From: Rhizobium sp. EC-SD404
GTDB lineage: Bacteria > Pseudomonadota > Alphaproteobacteria > Rhizobiales > Rhizobiaceae
Direction: 5' to 3'
Length of the DNA: 64,000 nt
Assembly (NCBI RefSeq): GCF_902498825.1
Contig: NZ_LR701459.1
Span: forward strand, 1,904,414 to 1,968,413
Shown piece after piece: positions 44,087 to 53,505 of this stretch. Every line of letters starts with the position of its first letter. The first letter of the stretch is position 1. The translations under genes and the position numbers were made by a program. The notes beneath the pieces are model-generated. The model made no database searches and was not told the DNA's origin. It saw only the letters and a list, made by a program, of their open reading frames with translations.

Positions 44087-45115
44087 ATGCGGCAGATCAG
44101 CGACACGGCGATCATTCTCGCGATCGCTGCTGTAGGGGCAGCCATCGCCACGCTCATCGGCTTTCCGGCGCCGTTTCTGACCGGCCCGGCTGCAGCCGTG
44201 TCGCTCGCGGGCGTCGCCGGGGCCCGGCTGACCTTGCCTATGCCGCTCGTCAATTTCGCGCTGATCATGATCGGCATGAGCATCGGCACGGGCGTTACGC
44301 CGGAGGTCATCGACACGGCGCGCCAATGGCCGGCAAGCTTCATCGTGCTCGCGCTCAGCCTCGTCGTCATCATGATCGCGACGAGCCGCTACTTGATGCG
44401 CATCCATGGCTATGACCGGAACACGGCGCTGCTTTCGGCTGCACCCGGTCACCTGTCGTATGTTCTGTCGCTGTCTTCCGACCTCGACGCCGACATCCGC
44501 AGGGTCAGCATCGTGCAGTCGATCCGCGTTCTGGCGATCACGCTGATCGTGCCCGTCGCGATCACCGCGATGGGCGGCAGCACGGATCTGCCGCCGACGG
44601 CGCTTGCAACGATGGAGCCGCTCGCGATCGTCCTGATCTTCGTCGCGTCGCTCGCCACCGGGTTGGTCTTCAAGAAACTGCGGGTACCGGCGGCGCTTCT
44701 GATCGGCGGCATGGTCGTCTCGACCTTCACGCACCTCACCGGCTTCGTTTCCGGCGTCATGCCCAACTGGCTCCAGATGCCGGCCTTTCTGGTCATGGGA
44801 GCGATGATCGGATCGCGCTTCTCAGGCGTTACGCCGCAGATGCTGAAGAGCTCGGTCACCGCCGGCGTCGCCATCACCGTGCTTGCGACGGCGCTCGCAG
44901 CTGCCTTCGCGGCTATCATCGCGATTTCGCTCGGCCTGCCGATGACGCAGGTGCTGATCGCTTTCGTGCCGGGCGGCGTGGAAGCGATGGTGGCGATGGC
45001 GGTGCTGCTCGACGCGGATCCGGCCTTCGTCGCAGCCCATCACGTCATGCGGCTTTTCATCCTGACCGCGCTGGTGCCGTTGCTGCTCGGGCGCCAGAAG
45101 AAACCGAAGACATGA
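44087..45115 (+). CDS. AbrB family membrane protein (putative regulator or permease)
   Basis: About 342 residues with nine or ten hydrophobic segments and an internal duplication typical of AbrB (ammonia monooxygenase-named) integral membrane proteins: compare GFPAPFLTGPAAAVSLAG in the first half with LRVPAALLIGGMVVST in the second. The name is historical, and no transported substrate is established. GTG 44081 is an alternative start six bases upstream. Its last 59 bases overlap the convergent O-antigen-ligase-like gene. It follows the aldo/keto reductase closely. Confidence 0.8.
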   Translation: MRQISDTAIILAIAAVGAAIATLIGFPAPFLTGPAAAVSLAGVAGARLTLPMPLVNFALIMIGMSIGTGVTPEVIDTARQWPASFIVLALSLVVIMIATSRYLMRIHGYDRNTALLSAAPGHLSYVLSLSSDLDADIRRVSIVQSIRVLAITLIVPVAITAMGGSTDLPPTALATMEPLAIVLIFVASLATGLVFKKLRVPAALLIGGMVVSTFTHLTGFVSGVMPNWLQMPAFLVMGAMIGSRFSGVTPQMLKSSVTAGVAITVLATALAAAFAAIIAISLGLPMTQVLIAFVPGGVEAMVAMAVLLDADPAFVAAHHVMRLFILTALVPLLLGRQKKPKT

Positions 45116-46349
45116 CGCGCTCGCGTTGGAAACGCGCCTCCAGTGCGAAGCATCCCCACAAAATGCCGAGCAGCAGATAGAAATGGCGCCAGTGGTCCGT
45201 GTCGATCACGGTGCCGATCAGAATATGCCCGAAGAAGACGATGTAAGTCGTGAGAAGATATGGCTGCCATGGTCGGTCGCGCAGCAGGTAGCGGAAGCCG
45301 AGCGTCAGCGTCCAGAGCATCAGGCCGAGATAGGTGACGAAGCCGAGCCAACCGTAATCCATCAGCGCCTTCAGCCAGATATTGTGCGTATCTTCGCCGT
45401 AGATCGTACCGAAAACGACGGCGCCGACACCGAGCGGCTTTTCCATTGCCAGGATGAAACCGATCTTGTGGCGTTCGAAACGACCGAACCGCGCGCCGTC
45501 ATAATCCTGGACGAGCTGCGCACGCACCGTGAAGAGATCGGACACGGCATCGAACTGCAGCGCGACGGCCAGGGCGCCGACCATGGCAAGGATGGCGCAG
45601 AGTGCTAGCGTGAATATCCGCAGGCGGAACTTCGCGCTCTGCGAACTGATGAGCATGGCGAAGACCATGATCAGGATGCTGACCGCGTATAGCCCCCAAG
45701 CCGCGCGTGAAAACGACAGGAAGATCGCGAAGGTCAGGACGAGGAGGGCGGCGAGTTTCAGCGGAGCGGCCGTGATCTTGCCGGTCAGCAGACTGTGGAT
45801 CAGATAGAGCGCCGGAAGGACGAGATAGGGACCGAAAACGTTCGGATCCTGGAACGCCCCGCGGGCCCGATCGTAGAGAGTGAAGAGCTCCGCGTTGGGA
45901 ATGGCGCCAAAGTAACCGAGAATGCCGAGCATGGCAGTCGCCAGCGCGCCGAAGACGTAAGCGATGAAGATGAGTTTCAACCGCCGATGGTCGGCTTCGA
46001 TGATGACGGCAAAGAAGATCGACGTCAGCGCCAGGAAAAGCGACACCGCCATGTAGAGCGGTCCGCCTTCCAAATTGGCCATCTGGGTGAGCGCGATCAT
46101 TCCTCCGACATTGAAGAGAATGAGCAGCACGACCAGCGGCATGATCGCGCGCGAGAGCGACATGCCGAAGACGGCCCAGAGCCCGATGAGGCCCACCATG
46201 AAGAGTTCGTAGGGCGCCGGTTCGTTGATGACGAACCCGGAGAGGAAGACGCCCAACGCCACCATCGCCGCACCGACCAGGCGGAACGAATGAGAGACCG
46301 GCGCTGTCGCCGGTCGGAACGTCTCATGGGCGTGGCCGACGAGGCTCAA
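45057..46349 (-). CDS. O-antigen ligase/Wzy-like polysaccharide protein
   Basis: 430 residues with about ten to twelve transmembrane segments and the long periplasmic loop typical of ligase/polymerase proteins (SGAQ-type region PNAELFTLYDRARGAFQDPN, about residues 152-171, and RFGRFERHKIGF about 290). In the neighbouring synthesis pathway it would polymerise or ligate the repeat unit on the periplasmic face. It starts at TTG 46349 in an overlap with the stop of the sugar transferase (TTGA), so translation is coupled. The 3' end overlaps the AbrB gene by 59 bases. Confidence 0.83.
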   Translation of the reverse strand: MSLVGHAHETFRPATAPVSHSFRLVGAAMVALGVFLSGFVINEPAPYELFMVGLIGLWAVFGMSLSRAIMPLVVLLILFNVGGMIALTQMANLEGGPLYMAVSLFLALTSIFFAVIIEADHRRLKLIFIAYVFGALATAMLGILGYFGAIPNAELFTLYDRARGAFQDPNVFGPYLVLPALYLIHSLLTGKITAAPLKLAALLVLTFAIFLSFSRAAWGLYAVSILIMVFAMLISSQSAKFRLRIFTLALCAILAMVGALAVALQFDAVSDLFTVRAQLVQDYDGARFGRFERHKIGFILAMEKPLGVGAVVFGTIYGEDTHNIWLKALMDYGWLGFVTYLGLMLWTLTLGFRYLLRDRPWQPYLLTTYIVFFGHILIGTVIDTDHWRHFYLLLGILWGCFALEARFQRERVMSSVSSGARAATAPARSG

Positions 46350-47905
46350 TAGGCGTTCTCCGTATTGAGCAGGCGCAGCGGTGTCAGGAAAAGGATCTTG
46401 AGGTCGAGAAACAGAGACCAGTTCTCGATGTAGTAGAGATCGTAGGCCGTACGTTGCTTGATCTTCTCGTCACTGTCGATCTCGCCGCGCCAGCCGTTGA
46501 TCTGCGCCCAGCCGGTTACGCCTGGCTTGACGCGATGGCGCGCGAAGTAACCATCGACCACTTCAACGAAGAGCCGGTCGCGTGTCTGCGCAAGGACCGC
46601 ATGAGGACGGGGGCCGACGAGCGAAAGGTTGCCCTTCAAAACGTTGAAGAGCTGCGGGAGTTCGTCGATCGACGTCCGCCGAATGAAGCGACCGACCGGG
46701 GTGACGCGCGGGTCGTGCTTCGTGACCGCGAGCAGGGCTGTCGGGTCGCTCATCTCCGTATACATCGACCGGAACTTGAAGACCTCGACCTCTTCGTTGT
46801 TGAAGCCGTGGCGCTTCTGCTTGAAAATGATCGGACCCTTCGACGTCGTCTTCACCGCGATCGCGGCCGCCAGCATCACCGGCCAGAGGACCAAAATTGC
46901 ACCCAGCGAAAAGCAGATGTCGAAGATGCGCTTGGCGACCGAGTCCCAATCGCGGATCGGCCGATCGAAGATATCGAGCATCGGCACATCGCCGACATAA
47001 GAATAGGAGCGCGGCCTGAAGCGCAGCTTGTTGGTATGGGCCGCCAGCCGGATATCGAGCGGCAGCACCCACAGTCTCTTCAAGAGCTGCAGGACGCGCG
47101 CTTCCGCTGTGATCGGCAGCGCGATGATCAGCATGTCGATCCGCGCGCGGCGAGCGAAATCCACGAGATCGGTCGTGTTGCCGAGCTTCGGATAGCCGGC
47201 CACCATGCTCGGCGACCGAGCCTCGTCACGATCGTCGAAGAGGCCGCAGATGCGGATATCGTTGTTCGGTTGCTGTTCGATCTGGCGGATCAGGGTCTTG
47301 GCGGTGTCACCACCGCCGACGATGACGGCGCGCCGTTCCATCGTGCCGTCACGCGCCCAGCGCTTGATGGCGAAGGCGGTGAACTGGCGGCTGGCGAACA
47401 GGAAGGCGCAGCCAAAGAGGAACCAGACAGCAAACCAGAAGCGCGAGAATTCTTCCCCGATTTTCAGAAAGAACGCCGCCAAGGCCATGATCGCGATCGT
47501 CGCACACCAGGCGACGAGCGCCCGTTTGAGCGTGCGCATGGGGGTGCGCAGAGCAGGAACCTGATAGGCGTCGGCCGCCTGGATGAGAAACACCGCAAGC
47601 AGGGAGCCGATGATCATGGATGTCGGGTAGCTGATCGCAAAGGCTTCTTGCGGCAGCACATAGATCAGATAGATGCCGATGGCGCCGAGAAAGAGCCCGG
47701 CAAATTCGAAGAGGCGCAGAAGCCCGACGATCATGCGCGGCGAGTAGCTTTCTTCGCGCAGCTGCGAGGCGATCTGGTCCGCCAGACGCCGGGTTTCATC
47801 GGACGCGTTAGCCACGGGCGTTGCTTCCGACCCGGATTCGCTGTTGACGAGATGCTCGCGAAGCGCCTGCGGGTCGAACAACGGGGCACGTTTGTCGTTC
47901 TTCAT
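46346..47905 (-). CDS. Polyprenyl-phosphate sugar phosphotransferase (WcaJ/ExoY type)
   Basis: 519 residues. Order: four or five N-terminal membrane helices (from about residue 55), a CoA-binding-like domain with GGGDTAKTLIRQIE (about 190-205), and the C-terminal phosphoglycosyl transferase domain (about 320-519) with FKFRSMYTE, RTSIDELPQLFNVLKG, SLVGPRPH and VKPGVTGWAQINGWRG. It would start the polysaccharide repeat by moving a hexose-1-phosphate to undecaprenyl phosphate. The ATG at 47905 is preferred; an upstream GTG exists. It follows the glycosyltransferase by 47 bases and overlaps the next gene. Confidence 0.92.
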   Translation of the reverse strand: MKNDKRAPLFDPQALREHLVNSESGSEATPVANASDETRRLADQIASQLREESYSPRMIVGLLRLFEFAGLFLGAIGIYLIYVLPQEAFAISYPTSMIIGSLLAVFLIQAADAYQVPALRTPMRTLKRALVAWCATIAIMALAAFFLKIGEEFSRFWFAVWFLFGCAFLFASRQFTAFAIKRWARDGTMERRAVIVGGGDTAKTLIRQIEQQPNNDIRICGLFDDRDEARSPSMVAGYPKLGNTTDLVDFARRARIDMLIIALPITAEARVLQLLKRLWVLPLDIRLAAHTNKLRFRPRSYSYVGDVPMLDIFDRPIRDWDSVAKRIFDICFSLGAILVLWPVMLAAAIAVKTTSKGPIIFKQKRHGFNNEEVEVFKFRSMYTEMSDPTALLAVTKHDPRVTPVGRFIRRTSIDELPQLFNVLKGNLSLVGPRPHAVLAQTRDRLFVEVVDGYFARHRVKPGVTGWAQINGWRGEIDSDEKIKQRTAYDLYYIENWSLFLDLKILFLTPLRLLNTENAY

Positions 47906-47952
47906 GAGCGCACGGACCTCTTGATCGGTCCACAACGCCTAGCAGAAAGGAG

Positions 47953-49134
47953 CTAAGAAAGGCTTGATGGAAAGCGCTTCAGCCCACGCGCGTTGCCCTC
48001 ATCGAGCGCTGTACCGTAAGCGGACATAACGCCGTCGGCCATGGTCTCGACGGAAAAGCGCTGGGCGAACTGTGCCGCATCGGGCATTTCCGCGTCGAGG
48101 CTAAAAGGGTCCACAATAGCCACCGACATCGTCGCTCCGAGCGCGCGCGCATTGCCTGGCTCCACCAAAGCTGCGCTGTCTTTGCCCAAGATTTCGGGAA
48201 TGCCGCCGACGCGACTTGCGATCACCGGCTTTGAGCTCGCAACCGCTTCCAGCACGATATAGGGCATCGCTTCCGCCCTCGACGGAACGATGACGGTGCG
48301 TGCCATCGCGAAAGCCTCGCGCGCCGGCATTGCGGGGCGCATGGTGACGCGATCGGCGAGCCCTAGCGTTTCGAGGGACGATTGGTAACGAGGCTTGTCG
48401 TCGCCATCACCAACCATCAGCGCCGATAGCGGCCGGCCCGACAGGCGCTCTGCCTCGACGAAAGCGTCGATGAAGACGTCAGGGCCCTTCAGGTCCCGCA
48501 TCATGCCGATGTAGAGGAAATCCACTGCGGTTTCGCTCAACCTCACGGGTTCGAATTCGGCGGCGCGCAGTCCGTTATAAACGACTTGGCAAGCCGCGCG
48601 CGGAGCGCCGATCTTGCGGGTGTAGACGTCGCGCTCGTAGTCGCAGACGAAGACCAGCCTGTCCGTCATGCGCTCCAGAAAGCGTTCGATCGCGAAGAAT
48701 ACACGGCCCTTCGTTGAGCCTGGGTCATAATGCAGGCTCCCGCCATGCGGCGAATAGAAACGGGCTACGCAATACCCAGATGCCCGTAGGAACGTGCCGG
48801 CGAGCCGGGCATAGGCGCCACCTTTGGCGCCATGCCCATGCAACACATCCGGCCGCAATGCTTTGATCTCTCTGTAACTCTTTACCCCGGCGCTGAGATC
48901 GCTCGGACTGATGGATCGCCGCATAGGCAGCCGGGTCAGACCCAGCGCCAGATGCGGGCGAATGCTTTCGAACAGCGCGTCTTCATAGGCGCCGCCGGTT
49001 GAACTGTCGCAGACGATGCCGACTGCATGTCCTTGCTGGCTGTGACGCTCTGCGAGATCGCGCACATGCCTGAAGATGCCGCCGACGGGCGATCGAAAGC
49101 AGTGGATGATGCGCAGGGGTCCTTGAGTGGACAT
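47953..49134 (-). CDS. Glycosyltransferase, family 4
   Basis: 393 residues of the GT-B fold. N-terminal HGHGAKGGAYARL (about residues 98-110) and the C-terminal nucleotide-sugar site with PSRAEAMPYIVLEAVASSKPV (in parts, about 283-303) and SRVGGIPEIL are typical of GT4. It should add a sugar to the lipid-linked repeat in the cytoplasm. Only one glycosyltransferase of this kind is present, so the repeat may be simple or other transferases lie elsewhere. It starts five bases after the export lipoprotein gene. Confidence 0.88.
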   Translation of the reverse strand: MSTQGPLRIIHCFRSPVGGIFRHVRDLAERHSQQGHAVGIVCDSSTGGAYEDALFESIRPHLALGLTRLPMRRSISPSDLSAGVKSYREIKALRPDVLHGHGAKGGAYARLAGTFLRASGYCVARFYSPHGGSLHYDPGSTKGRVFFAIERFLERMTDRLVFVCDYERDVYTRKIGAPRAACQVVYNGLRAAEFEPVRLSETAVDFLYIGMMRDLKGPDVFIDAFVEAERLSGRPLSALMVGDGDDKPRYQSSLETLGLADRVTMRPAMPAREAFAMARTVIVPSRAEAMPYIVLEAVASSKPVIASRVGGIPEILGKDSAALVEPGNARALGATMSVAIVDPFSLDAEMPDAAQFAQRFSVETMADGVMSAYGTALDEGNARGLKRFPSSLS

Positions 49135-49139
49135 CTGGC

Positions 49140-49712
49140 TCAGAACAGCCGCTCGCGGACGTAGATCGTGTCACCGGCAATGATCGGATCGGAAATTGGG
49201 ACGCGGCCTGTGATCACCTCGCCGTTGATCTTGCGGGTGACGTCCGCATCGTTCTGGTTGGCACGCGAGGTGAAGCCGCCGGCAATGGCAATGGCGTTCT
49301 GTACGGTCATGCCCGGCACGTAGGAATACTGGCCAGCCGCACCGACTTCTCCCATGATGAAGAAGGCACGGTACTGGTCGACTTCGACCGTGACGTCCGG
49401 ATCGCGGAGATACCCCTCGCGCAGCTTGGCGGCGATGGCACCTTCCAGTTCCTGTACCGAGCGGCCGCGCGCCGGCACCGAGCCGATCAGCGGGAAGGCC
49501 ACGTAGCCTGCCTGGTCGATGGAATAGGTGCCTGTGAGGCTCTCTTGCTCGAACACGGTGATACGCAGCCGGTCGCCGGCGTCCAGTTGGTATGGCTGCA
49601 TGGTTGCCGCGCTGAACCCTTCCGGCGCTGGCCGGTAGCCGGAGCATCCGCCAAGCAGCAGCGAGGCAGCAAGAGTGAGGAGCAGCGCCCGTGGGCGAGG
49701 GTTGGCGATCAT
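49140..49712 (-). CDS. Polysaccharide export outer-membrane lipoprotein (Wza-type OPX)
   Basis: 190 residues. A lipoprotein signal ends in LLGGC (Cys23). The poly-export domain follows (QLDAGDRLRITVFEQES, about residues 42-58, SIDQAGYVAFPLIGSV about 64-79) with one SLBB-type ligand domain (AFFIMGEVGAAGQYSYVPG, about 115-133). It forms the outer-membrane exit channel for capsule or exopolysaccharide. It is first in the leftward operon and divergent from the chain-length protein gene, so the two share a control region. Confidence 0.9.
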   Translation of the reverse strand: MIANPRPRALLLTLAASLLLGGCSGYRPAPEGFSAATMQPYQLDAGDRLRITVFEQESLTGTYSIDQAGYVAFPLIGSVPARGRSVQELEGAIAAKLREGYLRDPDVTVEVDQYRAFFIMGEVGAAGQYSYVPGMTVQNAIAIAGGFTSRANQNDADVTRKINGEVITGRVPISDPIIAGDTIYVRERLF

Positions 49713-49943
49713 GAGTTTCCGTCCATGCGCGTTCGACGCAGCCGATCAAGGCTCCCCCACTTATCGAACTGTTAGGGTTAATGGCCGGTAAAGAGGCGTC
49801 GAAAGAAGATGTCTCCAAGCATTCACGCGGATCGTCGACGAAATTAACGGTTGAGTTACCATGATTATTTACGGTCGCGCATGAAGCATTCCGCGCGTGC
49901 GCCGCTGCGCCCAGTATTCGCGGAGATCCTGAAGGAGCCCAGA

Positions 49944-52130
49944 ATGTCCGGCAATCTATCGTCACGCGGGGATGTCGATATCGATTTGGCCGGTCTGGCC
50001 GCTGCGCTCTGGGCGCGAAAGTTCGCGATAGCGGCCAGCGTGCTCATCGTCGGAGCGCTGACTTACTTCACCACAAGCTCCATGGCGCCGCTCTATCGCA
50101 GCGAAGCGCGCATCCTCATCGAAGAGCGCGGGTCGGCCTTGTCGCGGACCAGCGAGGGCGGGGCGGTCAGGGATCTCGTTCTCGACGAGCAGGCGATCGC
50201 AAGCCAGGTCGAAGTCATCCGCTCCTCCGACCTTCTGCGCGAAATCATCGCCGAACTCGACCTCGGCAGTCGTGCGGAATTCGATCCGGCCGGTCAGCCA
50301 TCGATGATCGGCGACCTTCTCGTGCTGCTCGGCATCGGCAACGATCCGATCGATGACAGCGCGCAACAGCGCGTTCTCGAAGCCGTGCGCGAAAACATCC
50401 AGGTCTATCAGGTGCAGAATTCGCGCGTGATCGCGATCGAATTCTCTTCCGAAGACCCGGAATTGGCTGCGGCCGTCGCCAATGGTCTTGCGGGGGCTTA
50501 TCTCGAAGTTCAGAGCGGCGCCAAGCTCGATTCCAATGCCGGCGCTGCCGCCTGGCTCGAGCCGGAAATCGCCGAGTTGCGTGGCCGTGTGCGCGATGCC
50601 GAAGCGGAAGTTGCAGCATTCCGCGCCGAAAACGGACTTCTTCTCGTCACGGAAAACAATACGCTCGTCACGCGGCAACTCTCGGACATCACCACAGAAC
50701 TGTCGCAGGTGCGGACGCAGCGCGCCGATGCTGAAGCGCGTGCGTCGAACGTCCGTTCGGCACTCGATGCAGGCCAGTCGGCGGACGCGGTCAGCAGCGT
50801 CGTTGACTCGCCTTTGCTCCAGCGCCTACGCGAGCGGCAATCGGAGATCGAGAGCCAGATATCCGATCTTTCGATCACCTTGCTCGACAACCATCCCCGC
50901 ATTCGCAGCCTGCGCTCGCAGCTTGCCGGCATCGGCACGCAGCTCGATGAGGAAGTCCGCAAGGCGTTGGTCAATTTGGAGGCCAATGCGGCCGTCGCCC
51001 GGTTACGTGAAGAGGAACTGACGCAGCAGCTCGATCTCCTGAAGCAAAATTCCGCTCAGGCCGGCACCGACGAAGTCGAGCTTCGGGCGCTCGAGCGCGA
51101 AGCTCGGGCCGAACGGGACCTCCTGGAGACCTATCTCGCGCGCTTCCGTGAAACCGTCTCGCGCGGCGACCCCAACGCGCTTCCGGCCGATGCGCGCATC
51201 ATTTCCAGCGCTGGCGTACCAAGCGAGCCGTATTTCCCGAAAGTGATCCCGGCCGTCATCGTCGCCATGCTCGCGACCGCGCTCATTCACATGATCATCA
51301 TTCTGCTGCTTGAGCTTTTCTCCGGTCGTGCGCTCCGCGAACGCGTGGTCATCGATGAGACAAGCGCGGCCACGCCCTCCCTTGAACCCGGCCTGATCGC
51401 TACGACGGGCACTGCGACTGCAAGCCTTGCTCATCAGCCTCTGGCGGCGTCCGCTCAGCCAGATCCCTCTCTTGCAACTGCGGGGCCGTCTGAGCTCGTG
51501 ACGCATTCGGCATCGGCCGTCTCGAAAGTGGCGACCGAGGAAGAGGATTTCTCCGTCAACGGCGTCGCCGCCGCCCTGATTTCCAAACGCGTCCAGGTGG
51601 TCGCCGGCATCTCGCCGGAAGGCGATGCGGCAACGCTCGGTGCCGTTCTTCTGGCCCGCGCTGTGTCGGATCGGGGCCATCGGGTCCTGACAATCGACAT
51701 GACGGGCGCCGGTATTCCCGGCGCGACGATGGCCGGGACGGGCCTGCCGGGAATCACCGATCTTTTGTGCGGTTCGGTATCGATCGCCGAATCCATCCAC
51801 GCCGACTATGCATCGTCGGCCGATATCATCCCGCTTGGAACGGCTGATCCCGAAACCGCCATGCGCGGCGCTTCCAGGATCGCCATGATCATCGAAGCCC
51901 TCTCGGACGCCTATGATACGATCATCGTCGAGTGCGGCAGCACCGAGATCACGTCCGTCCAGAAGATGCTGGCAGACCGACCGATCACCGTCGTGATGTC
52001 GGTGGTCGATCCGGATGCCTCGATCGTCGCAGAAGAATTCGAAGCGTTGGTAGAAGCCGGCTTTGACGATGCGCTGATCATGCTGGTCGACGAGGACGGC
52101 CCCCAGTCTACCCGCAGCAACGCAGCCTGA
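49944..52130 (+). CDS. Wzc-like polysaccharide co-polymerase with degenerate kinase domain
   Basis: About 728 residues. TM1 is at residues about 26-44, the Wzz chain-length domain follows, then a coiled coil (about 215-410), TM2 (about 434-460) and a C-terminal BY-kinase-like domain. In a functional Wzc-type kinase a GK[ST] P-loop would be expected near residue 552; here it reads SPEGDAATLGA with no Lys-Ser/Thr. The Walker A' (RVLTIDMTG, 580-588) and B-like (YDTIIVECG, 657-665) strands persist and no C-terminal tyrosine cluster is seen. The start is fixed by AAGGAG at 49931-49936, six bases before the ATG. It is divergent from the export gene, and probably controls chain length without being a kinase. 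Confidence 0.88.
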   Translation: MSGNLSSRGDVDIDLAGLAAALWARKFAIAASVLIVGALTYFTTSSMAPLYRSEARILIEERGSALSRTSEGGAVRDLVLDEQAIASQVEVIRSSDLLREIIAELDLGSRAEFDPAGQPSMIGDLLVLLGIGNDPIDDSAQQRVLEAVRENIQVYQVQNSRVIAIEFSSEDPELAAAVANGLAGAYLEVQSGAKLDSNAGAAAWLEPEIAELRGRVRDAEAEVAAFRAENGLLLVTENNTLVTRQLSDITTELSQVRTQRADAEARASNVRSALDAGQSADAVSSVVDSPLLQRLRERQSEIESQISDLSITLLDNHPRIRSLRSQLAGIGTQLDEEVRKALVNLEANAAVARLREEELTQQLDLLKQNSAQAGTDEVELRALEREARAERDLLETYLARFRETVSRGDPNALPADARIISSAGVPSEPYFPKVIPAVIVAMLATALIHMIIILLLELFSGRALRERVVIDETSAATPSLEPGLIATTGTATASLAHQPLAASAQPDPSLATAGPSELVTHSASAVSKVATEEEDFSVNGVAAALISKRVQVVAGISPEGDAATLGAVLLARAVSDRGHRVLTIDMTGAGIPGATMAGTGLPGITDLLCGSVSIAESIHADYASSADIIPLGTADPETAMRGASRIAMIIEALSDAYDTIIVECGSTEITSVQKMLADRPITVVMSVVDPDASIVAEEFEALVEAGFDDALIMLVDEDGPQSTRSNAA

Positions 52131-52157: not shown

Positions 52158-53378
52158 TCAGGATATCCGGCGCTGAATGGCCCGAGCGATCTTGTCGAGC
52201 CGGGGATTGGCCTTGATCGCCTGCTTGGTCGATGCGATGGCACGAAGGGTCGCGCCAACGGCACGGCCCTTCGTCGTCAACGGCAGGTAGCAATCGTACT
52301 GCGTCGTGATCTGATCGCACCAGGACCGCTTGTAGGCCTCATCGCCGATACCGAAATCGAACATCATCTGGCCGTTGGCGCAGGCATCTTCGATAAGCCG
52401 GTAGAACAGAAACTCGCCGATGCTGAGTTCGTCCGCCAATTTTTCGTCGATCGAGCCGAATTGGCAGATCAGGTGCCCGTTCTTGCGCGTTACCCCTGAT
52501 ATCGCGCCGTAGCGCCCATCGGTCAGCTGCACGGCCGAAAGCCGCAGCAATGGCACGGTTTCTTCGGTCTCGGTGACGACCAGCCGACGGAAGAAGGCCT
52601 GCACGTCCGGCTTGGCGAAAACATCCAGCTTACCCTGCTTGTCGAAGCGGGCTGCCTTCTGAACGAAGAACGCCTCAAGCAGGCGAAGCGCCGTTTCGGG
52701 GTCGTCACCATGCACGATCTCGTAGCCGCCCAGTTCCTCCAGCGTGCGTTCGCCGAGGCGATGCTTCTTGCGCCGCTTCTTGCCATTGATCCGCGACAGC
52801 GCTTGGTCGAAGCCGCCGTCGAGCGTCATCTGGAACGCCTGGTTGTTGCTGACGACCCTGTCGAGCGGCATCAACGGGTTGTCCACCCCGCGCCAGCTTT
52901 CAGGTGTCCGATAGAGTGCGAGCAGATCGAGCTTCAATCCGGCGTCTGACAACGCAGACGACAGGAGCGGCGGCGAAAACTGCATGTTGTCCGGCGAAAA
53001 AAGGCCGAAATTCAGATTGCTGAAGGACGTGCCGATATAGCGGCCGACCTTTGCGCCACCCTGGCTGATGATTTCGAGCGGCAGCATGATCCGACCGCCG
53101 CCGGTGAAATGAAGCAGCACGACGACCGGTTCGGTACCTGTGGCTTCAAGCCAGTTGCGGCACCAGTCGTAGCCGAGGTGAACGGATGTGAAGAACTGCG
53201 TTTCGAGCGAGCGCCATTGGCGTTCGGCCTCTTCGATGCTGCCGAAAATCTCGACGCGCTCGACCGTCTGCGCAGCGCCTGGAGCAGGCACGTGCGATGT
53301 CACGCCAGCGATCAGCGGTGCTTCGATCGGTTCACCGGTTGTCTTGCGCGCAACTTCCATGGGTACGATCCTCGTCAT
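52158..53378 (-). CDS. BcsL/CelD-like acetyltransferase (GNAT, FemAB-like)
   Basis: 406 residues. It belongs to the double-GNAT family found in polysaccharide loci, which acetylates exopolysaccharide or its precursors. The C-terminal fold contains GRYGAISGVTRKNGHLICQFGSID and MMFDFGIGDEAYKRSW (about residues 280-350, in pieces). The start at 53378 has GAGG at seven bases. The gene is convergent with the chain-length gene, with a gap of 27 bases. Its link with the polysaccharide locus is inferred from position and family. Confidence 0.78.
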   Translation of the reverse strand: MTRIVPMEVARKTTGEPIEAPLIAGVTSHVPAPGAAQTVERVEIFGSIEEAERQWRSLETQFFTSVHLGYDWCRNWLEATGTEPVVVLLHFTGGGRIMLPLEIISQGGAKVGRYIGTSFSNLNFGLFSPDNMQFSPPLLSSALSDAGLKLDLLALYRTPESWRGVDNPLMPLDRVVSNNQAFQMTLDGGFDQALSRINGKKRRKKHRLGERTLEELGGYEIVHGDDPETALRLLEAFFVQKAARFDKQGKLDVFAKPDVQAFFRRLVVTETEETVPLLRLSAVQLTDGRYGAISGVTRKNGHLICQFGSIDEKLADELSIGEFLFYRLIEDACANGQMMFDFGIGDEAYKRSWCDQITTQYDCYLPLTTKGRAVGATLRAIASTKQAIKANPRLDKIARAIQRRIS

Positions 53379-53505
53379 CAAACGACCTCGTCACGATGCG
53401 CGCGAGGATGGTGGATCGTCCTGAACAAAGCGTTGTCCAATCCGCTCTTGGATGGATGAAAATGGGCAAGGTCCCCGATTAAGTCGTCCCATGCTTTCGG
53501 TGACG

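Follow-up and report, generated by a model that had tools for sequence, protein, structure and literature searches.

In the 64,000-nucleotide stretch of contig NZ_LR701459.1 from Rhizobium sp. EC-SD404 analysed here (hereafter the window), the gene at 49944..52130 encodes a polysaccharide co-polymerase (PCP) whose cytoplasmic domain has the predicted fold of a bacterial tyrosine kinase (BY-kinase, BYK) and lacks a P-loop. The best explanation of our observations, and one that we consider very probable, is that the protein is the PCP-2 of a Wzy-type pathway for a polysaccharide like the unipolar polysaccharide (UPP), and that its BY pseudokinase works as a scaffold independently of phosphorylation. 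The product is probably a membrane protein that helps a Rhizobium-family soil bacterium to make a sticky surface polysaccharide. Comparison of relatives further suggests that the pseudokinase domain is often retained where the rest of the machine has been lost. The gene and its parts, in window coordinates, are the following:

49944..52130, plus strand: PCP-2 polysaccharide co-polymerase fused to a BY pseudokinase, 728 aa (AlphaFold mean pLDDT 80.5, pTM 0.39)
49932..49937, plus strand: AAGGAG, likely ribosome-binding site, 6 nt 5′ of the ATG, read from the sequence
49977..50258, plus strand: Wzz domain, residues 12-105 (PF02706, 44 bits, cut-off 25.5)
50457..51167, plus strand: long periplasmic helical hairpin, residues 172-408 (model helices)
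51243..51323, plus strand: second membrane helix, residues 434-460 (model helix H434-460)
51339..51554, plus strand: disordered, fast-evolving linker, residues 466-537 (pLDDT <50 at 469-532)
51555..52097, plus strand: BY pseudokinase domain, residues 538-718
51612..51635, plus strand: degenerate Walker A, SPEGDAAT, residues 557-564 (alignment)
51684..51707, plus strand: degenerate Walker A′, VLTIDMTG, residues 581-588 (alignment)
51918..51941, plus strand: degenerate Walker B, TIIVECGS, residues 659-666 (alignment)

The initial annotation had claimed that the Walker A motif of this domain is lost, and our alignment with the ExoP-like kinase of the same genome (L003) and 29 other alphaproteobacterial BYK-type domains confirms it: residues 557-564 read SPEGDAAT, with no Lys, where BYKs have GEGK[ST], and a proper P-loop, looked for in this alignment, is not present in the co-polymerase. 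The A′- and B-like strands had been described as remaining; they do remain as strands, but their motifs are degenerate. The Walker A′ motif is DxDxR and Walker B is a hydrophobic stretch followed by DxxP. Here A′ keeps its first Asp (D585) and has lost the second Asp and the Arg (IDMTG), while in B Glu663 replaces the Asp and there is no Pro (IIVECGS). The last Tyr of the protein is Y657, so there is no Tyr tail, in line with the earlier remark that no tyrosine cluster is seen. The EX2RX2R octamer-interface motif, which precedes the P-loop, was not found in this co-polymerase; it is a weak discriminator, occurring in 11/29 BYK-type rows, 1/51 UPP-locus rows and 1/120 homologues. An active kinase with an unusual P-loop was thought unlikely, the three motifs and the Tyr tail being absent together.

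A separate kinase gene does exist elsewhere in the genome: the ExoP-like protein L003 has all its motifs intact (PREGKTT, IDGDMR, VDLPP and a Tyr-rich tail). This canonical BYK might work the pseudokinase in trans, through mixed oligomers or by phosphorylating it, and its presence in the same genome agrees with this. The co-polymerase, however, offers no Tyr tail as a phosphorylation target, its last Tyr being residue 657, and we regard working in trans as very improbable.

Is the loss of the P-loop peculiar to this gene? It is not; the orthologous group shares it. Among the best 120 of the 2147 homologues found, query included, none has G[KR][ST] in the loop region; 110 of these 120 carry SP.GD, typically as SPxGDxGS, and the seven most similar proteins diverge further ([SA]PEGD[ART]A). 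GK[ST] was absent near the loop in all 47 loci from further genera and genomes of Rhizobiaceae, and in the loop of 20 additional loci, mostly odd cases, one of which (L177) ends before the loop. In L178 a nearby GMGKS precedes the strand and the actual loop is SPGGDQGS; the loop of L170 reads SPEGDDAA. Other families of the order have different but equally P-loop-free loops (L030, L032-L037, L101). Because G[KR][ST] is absent family-wide in the homologues, the motif loss is neither chance nor a sequencing slip, and an error or frameshift at the P-loop in particular is ruled out, since relatives carry the same residues. In a domain tree, 58 pseudokinases, from UPP loci or standing alone, are separated from 30 BYK-type domains by a branch with support 100/99. 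A scan of named genomes for the locus gave 14 loci, none from S. meliloti or A. fabrum. Some odd proteins were also met. A protein from a eukaryote data set (P0217) contains the domain and is probably bacterial contamination. A 356-aa frame from another alphaproteobacterium (L079), which lies near a phosphoglycosyl transferase match, has a BYK-like domain with GEGRS (Arg for Lys) and was counted with the BYK-type domains. Two stand-alone domains that adjoin an outer-membrane polysaccharide export (OPX) gene (L084, L087) have loops far from SPxGD (THRELQS, PFADAAS), with no recognisable phosphoglycosyl transferase (PGT) within the fetched stretch.

The pseudokinase domain is under strong purifying selection and retains a pseudo-site of its own. 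G560, D561, D585, E663, C664 and G665 are invariant in 38/38 representatives (domain identity <80%), and alignment columns inside the three degenerate motifs are conserved above the rest of the domain (3.04 vs 2.29 bits; one-sided rank test p 3.3e-4, for columns that are not independent of each other). When this gene is compared with those of two congeners, the ratio of nonsynonymous to synonymous substitution rates (dN/dS) is roughly 0.032-0.038 in the pseudokinase domain; residues 1-465 give 0.049-0.052, and the linker, with a mean pairwise identity of 0.11, gives about 0.2. A pseudogene is ruled out by these ratios. They also bear on the idea that the domain is a functionless evolutionary remnant, to which we give almost no credence: the lost catalytic motifs and the fast-evolving linker would fit it, but a dN/dS of 0.03-0.04 would not, nor would the occurrence of the domain in 192/192 Wzy-positive genomes and its persistence where the co-polymerase part is gone (see below).

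The pseudo-site could instead bind a nucleotide through the SPxGD loop, without tyrosine phosphorylation, and act as an allosteric switch. G560, D561 and D585, present in 38/38 representatives, agree with this, as do the strand-loop-helix geometry of a P-loop, which the model retains, and the precedent of CapA1B1, which binds ADP-Mg without autophosphorylation according to the available part of PMC3795738. On the other hand, the Lys is missing, an Asp lies within the loop, and the loop varies at the same locus in other families and in some members of the Rhizobiaceae; because of this variation no common binding motif is kept. A nucleotide switch seems to us unlikely, if less so than working in trans.

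A scaffold acting through protein contacts is the best-supported role, by analogy with what the available part of PMC12004946 argues for EcpK/EpsV and HfsB/HfsA. In such a mechanism the co-polymerase would serve the Wzy-type assembly of a surface polysaccharide that resembles UPP; as in Wzc, the hairpin in the periplasm and the two membrane helices would act together with Wzy and the OPX exporter. Since the P-loop Lys, the second Asp and the Arg of A′, the Asp and Pro of B and the Tyr tail are all missing, no assembly-disassembly cycle driven by autophosphorylation should be possible for the pseudokinase domain. Most likely the BYK-fold domain would be a scaffold that needs no phosphorylation and that binds partners in the same machine through its conserved pseudo-site and surface. 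The initial annotation had likewise suggested a pseudokinase with a structural or regulatory role, departing from the phosphorylation-cycle model; motif loss and strong constraint support that suggestion. The data show the predicted fold, the loss of the motifs and its conservation, purifying selection and the order of the genes; that the domain is inactive and a scaffold, which partners it has and what the pathway makes are inferred.

Several points weigh against the scaffold reading or against parts of it. With a pTM of 0.39, the arrangement of the domains is not predicted. The charged residues D561, D585 and E663 are conserved in the pseudo-site, which would leave room for binding of a nucleotide or another ligand. 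In one relative, known from a draft genome (L029), a Lys stands one residue away from where the P-loop would have it (EENKST), and at least two Tyr occur in the last 25 residues of 5 of the 120 best homologues. High dS in some comparisons (0.6-0.8; 1.3 for the linker) makes the dN/dS ratios rough. Finally, the UPP identity comes from homology and gene order, not from phenotype.

The identity of the protein as a polysaccharide co-polymerase, also part of the initial annotation, holds well. PF02706 scores over its cut-off, the model has the expected helices (the first membrane helix at about residues 26-45, H26-45), and Foldseek ranks Wzc structures best. A Wzz domain, two membrane helices, a large periplasmic part and a cytoplasmic C-terminal domain make it a PCP-2, and the AlphaFold model gives residues 538-718 a BYK fold; with PCP-2 and motif-less BYK-fold domain in a single chain, it is a fused BY-pseudokinase PCP-2. 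The TIGR01005 score, 387.3 bits, is under the cut-off of 411.7. The open reading frame (ORF) begins with the ATG at 49944, and its start Met is matched in Rhizobium albus, the closest named relative (91% identity).

How the domain relates to the polymerase was surveyed in 247 Rhizobiaceae genomes (E ≤ 1e-8 for the domain, E ≤ 1e-20 for the cluster's Wzy). The pseudokinase domain was found in 223 of them and Wzy in 192, and all 192 Wzy-positive genomes have the domain. If frame length is taken as a proxy for the full protein, the N-terminal part having been read in only some genomes, 185 of the 192 carry the domain within a single open frame of at least 650 aa. The other seven are three frame-split genes, with the N-terminal part in a different frame (genomes G012, G485, G545), and four cut by contig ends (G378, G402, G442, G444). 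The splits, with a frame change near residues 118-138 in L174 (G485), 202-205 in L175 (G545) and 177 in L085 (G012), are assembly errors or recent gene decay. Among the 31 domain-positive genomes without Wzy, 24 have frames below 650 aa, one has a contig-end fragment (G356) and six have long frames. Of these six, G004 has an unrelated BYK with GEGKS (L089); the N-terminal part is just 27-29% identical in G010 and G553; G392 gives a weak partial N-terminal match, hairpin included; G415 gives no N-terminal match; and G486, of the same genus as G415, was judged by frame length only. At least three Wzy-less genomes thus keep a diverged long form, and G010, G553 and G392 weigh against a strict rule that couples Wzy and hairpin.

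In the 150 domain rows listed, Wzy accompanies 143/143 long frames and 0/7 short ones, although the genomes are related, so that a Fisher p value would be unfair. Both states, with the same coupling, occur inside each of four genera: g18 (G019, G433 vs G502), g321 (G387 vs G468, G530), g355 (G421 vs G491, G550) and g314 (G463 vs G380, G525). If these genera are natural groups, there were at least four separate loss events. Loci were read for 19 of the 24 short cases. None of the 19 has Wzy, the GT4-family glycosyltransferase or the GNAT-family acyltransferase in the fetched stretch, whereas OPX lies beside the domain in 17 and PGT in 14. The N-terminal profile recognised no hairpin in 18 of the 19; the exception, L183 (G404), matches weakly over part of the hairpin. 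Genome-wide searches for GT4 (E ≤ 1e-20) and Wzy (E ≤ 0.001) found neither in the ten reduced genomes tested nor in G010, and detected both in 4/4 control genomes. Most of the hairpin is missing in many Wzy-less relatives. The reduced forms include proteins in which it is deleted, lacking about residues 195-402 (L086, L167, L169, L170), domains with membrane helices, recognised by eye or by profile (L082, L168, L185), and a 219-aa form in which inspection by eye showed no membrane helix (L083).

What might the domain do once the polymerase is gone? The survey suggests that the periplasmic hairpin is part of how the polymerase is controlled and that the role of the pseudokinase outlasts the hairpin; that role may be separate from polymerase control. 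Because OPX and PGT are retained beside the domain, initiation and export are the first suspects. The main alternative is pairing in trans with another PCP. PCPs without a recognised BYK domain, 489-710 aa long, are present in the four Wzy-less genomes examined (L116-L119), and PCP relatives occur in 58/62 genomes, Wzy-positive and Wzy-less alike, so that a bipartite PCP is neither supported nor excluded. The PCP of L118 sits among ORFs that, judged by eye, resemble wzx, wecG/tagA and glycosyltransferase genes. As a tentative idea, somewhat short of even odds in our view, the pseudokinase could be a module of its own that survives the loss of Wzy and, where tested, of GT4. In such lineages the protein is usually shortened, losing the hairpin and in some cases all of its periplasmic region, and the pseudokinase persists, mostly next to OPX and PGT, within a shortened membrane protein or as a stand-alone form. 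What has been kept would in that case be a control of chain initiation or export that needs no phosphorylation (through PGT, OPX or both), or the formation in trans of a bipartite PCP with a kinase-less co-polymerase.

The neighbouring genes of the window from which the pathway is read are these:

45057..46349, minus strand: Wzy-type polymerase / O-antigen ligase family protein (PF04932, 48.5 bits, cut-off 31.7)
46346..47935, minus strand: initiating phosphoglycosyl transferase of the WcaJ/HfsE/UppE type (TIGR03023, 477.1 bits, cut-off 410.75)
47953..49134, minus strand: GT4-family glycosyltransferase
49140..49712, minus strand: OPX gene, divergent from the PCP gene (PF02563 and SLBB)
52158..53381, minus strand: GNAT-family acyltransferase of the cluster (PF13480)

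With the HfsE model NF050817 the PGT scores 332.5, below the cut-off of 750. Most of the full-length loci compared for synteny have the GNAT gene, and beyond it here lie CtaA, ArgC, SpeB, RpsI and RplM, named from their translations alone. The same arrangement of genes, though not always complete, is seen in named Rhizobium, Neorhizobium and Mesorhizobium genomes, and also in the four other families of the order that were read (L096, L099, L100, L101). In Mesorhizobium loti strain LU (L049), the full-length PCP, GT4, OPX and GNAT are present, and the 8 kb retrieved on that side contain neither Wzy nor PGT. In UPP clusters, as far as the available part of PMC12727192 describes them, UppC is of the Wza type and UppE is the initiating transferase; the OPX and PGT genes correspond to these two (PMC12727192, PMC4018554, both in part). 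A UppC-like OPX, a UppE/HfsE-like PGT, a glycosyltransferase and Wzy make this, by family and gene order, a UPP-type cluster, with an adhesin resembling UPP as its putative product. In the accessible portion of PMC4646962, the UPP genes listed for A. tumefaciens include gumB (Atu1238) and exoP (Atu1239), a PCP gene listed with an OPX-type gene as here; the likeness is one of description.

Fused dead-kinase co-polymerases are already known, and the present protein belongs to this published kind. The available part of Blocher et al. 2025 (PMC12004946), after Cuthbertson et al., lists as fused BY-pseudokinase PCP-2 proteins SMc01795 of S. meliloti, BCETI_6000729 of B. ceti, Mlr8439 of M. japonicum and VV1_2305 of V. 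vulnificus. They share, by description, the same single chain of membrane/periplasmic part and BY pseudokinase and include members of the Rhizobiales; to them the present analysis adds the SPxGD loop, a test for selection and the association with Wzy. The same source describes HfsA/HfsB of the Caulobacter holdfast and EpsV/EcpK of Myxococcus as a PCP-2 with a catalytically dead BYK-fold partner, in two separate proteins rather than the one fused chain found here. HfsB-like stand-alone domains lie near hfsE-like genes (L114:16202-16966, L115:14628-15362) in the two genomes that match HfsE best (624 and 608.3 bits, both short of the cut-off of 750). These proteins keep GEGVST or GEGTST (Val or Thr for Lys) and IDADL, so that a loop losing the Lys only would be another route to the same state. 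The trees neither demonstrate nor reject a common origin of HfsB and the UPP pseudokinases: the free tree groups HfsB with the BYK-type domains, and the constrained tree is 1.3 log units worse (approximately unbiased test, p 0.295). That tree left out seven long or unsure rows (L030, L033, L035, L036, L037, L070, L087), which the tree of 58 and 30 domains included. PssP2 of R. leguminosarum is described in the available part of PMC4182512 (2014) as a PCP whose BYK-like domain lacks Walker A, A′, B and the Y-cluster; it affects polymer length, and that part reports no phosphorylation detected. It is likened here by description, being a 586-aa protein of the Pss-II region, versus 728 aa in a UPP-type cluster. 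Wzc of E. coli, by the available part of PMC11986026, is a PCP-2a with an active BYK, in which Lys540, the Walker motifs and the Tyr tail drive an octamer cycle; in that model Wzy is taken to lie inside the octamer, and polymerisation to depend on how stable the octamer is, which phosphorylation of the tail determines. Wzc shares the overall fold and domain order, with motifs and Tyr tail intact that are lost here.

We found no openly licensed paper that joins 'unipolar polysaccharide' with 'pseudokinase', and saw no openly licensed account of the coupled loss of Wzy and hairpin, though no search named coupled loss as such. On the standard model, Wzc-type proteins control polymerisation by passing through cycles of tyrosine phosphorylation. 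Strongly constrained orthologues without catalytic motifs imply that the BYK fold is needed in its own right. In this respect the coupled loss is a natural dissection, since lineages that lack polymerase and hairpin and keep the pseudokinase indicate partners that can be tested. The adhesins concerned matter for root attachment.
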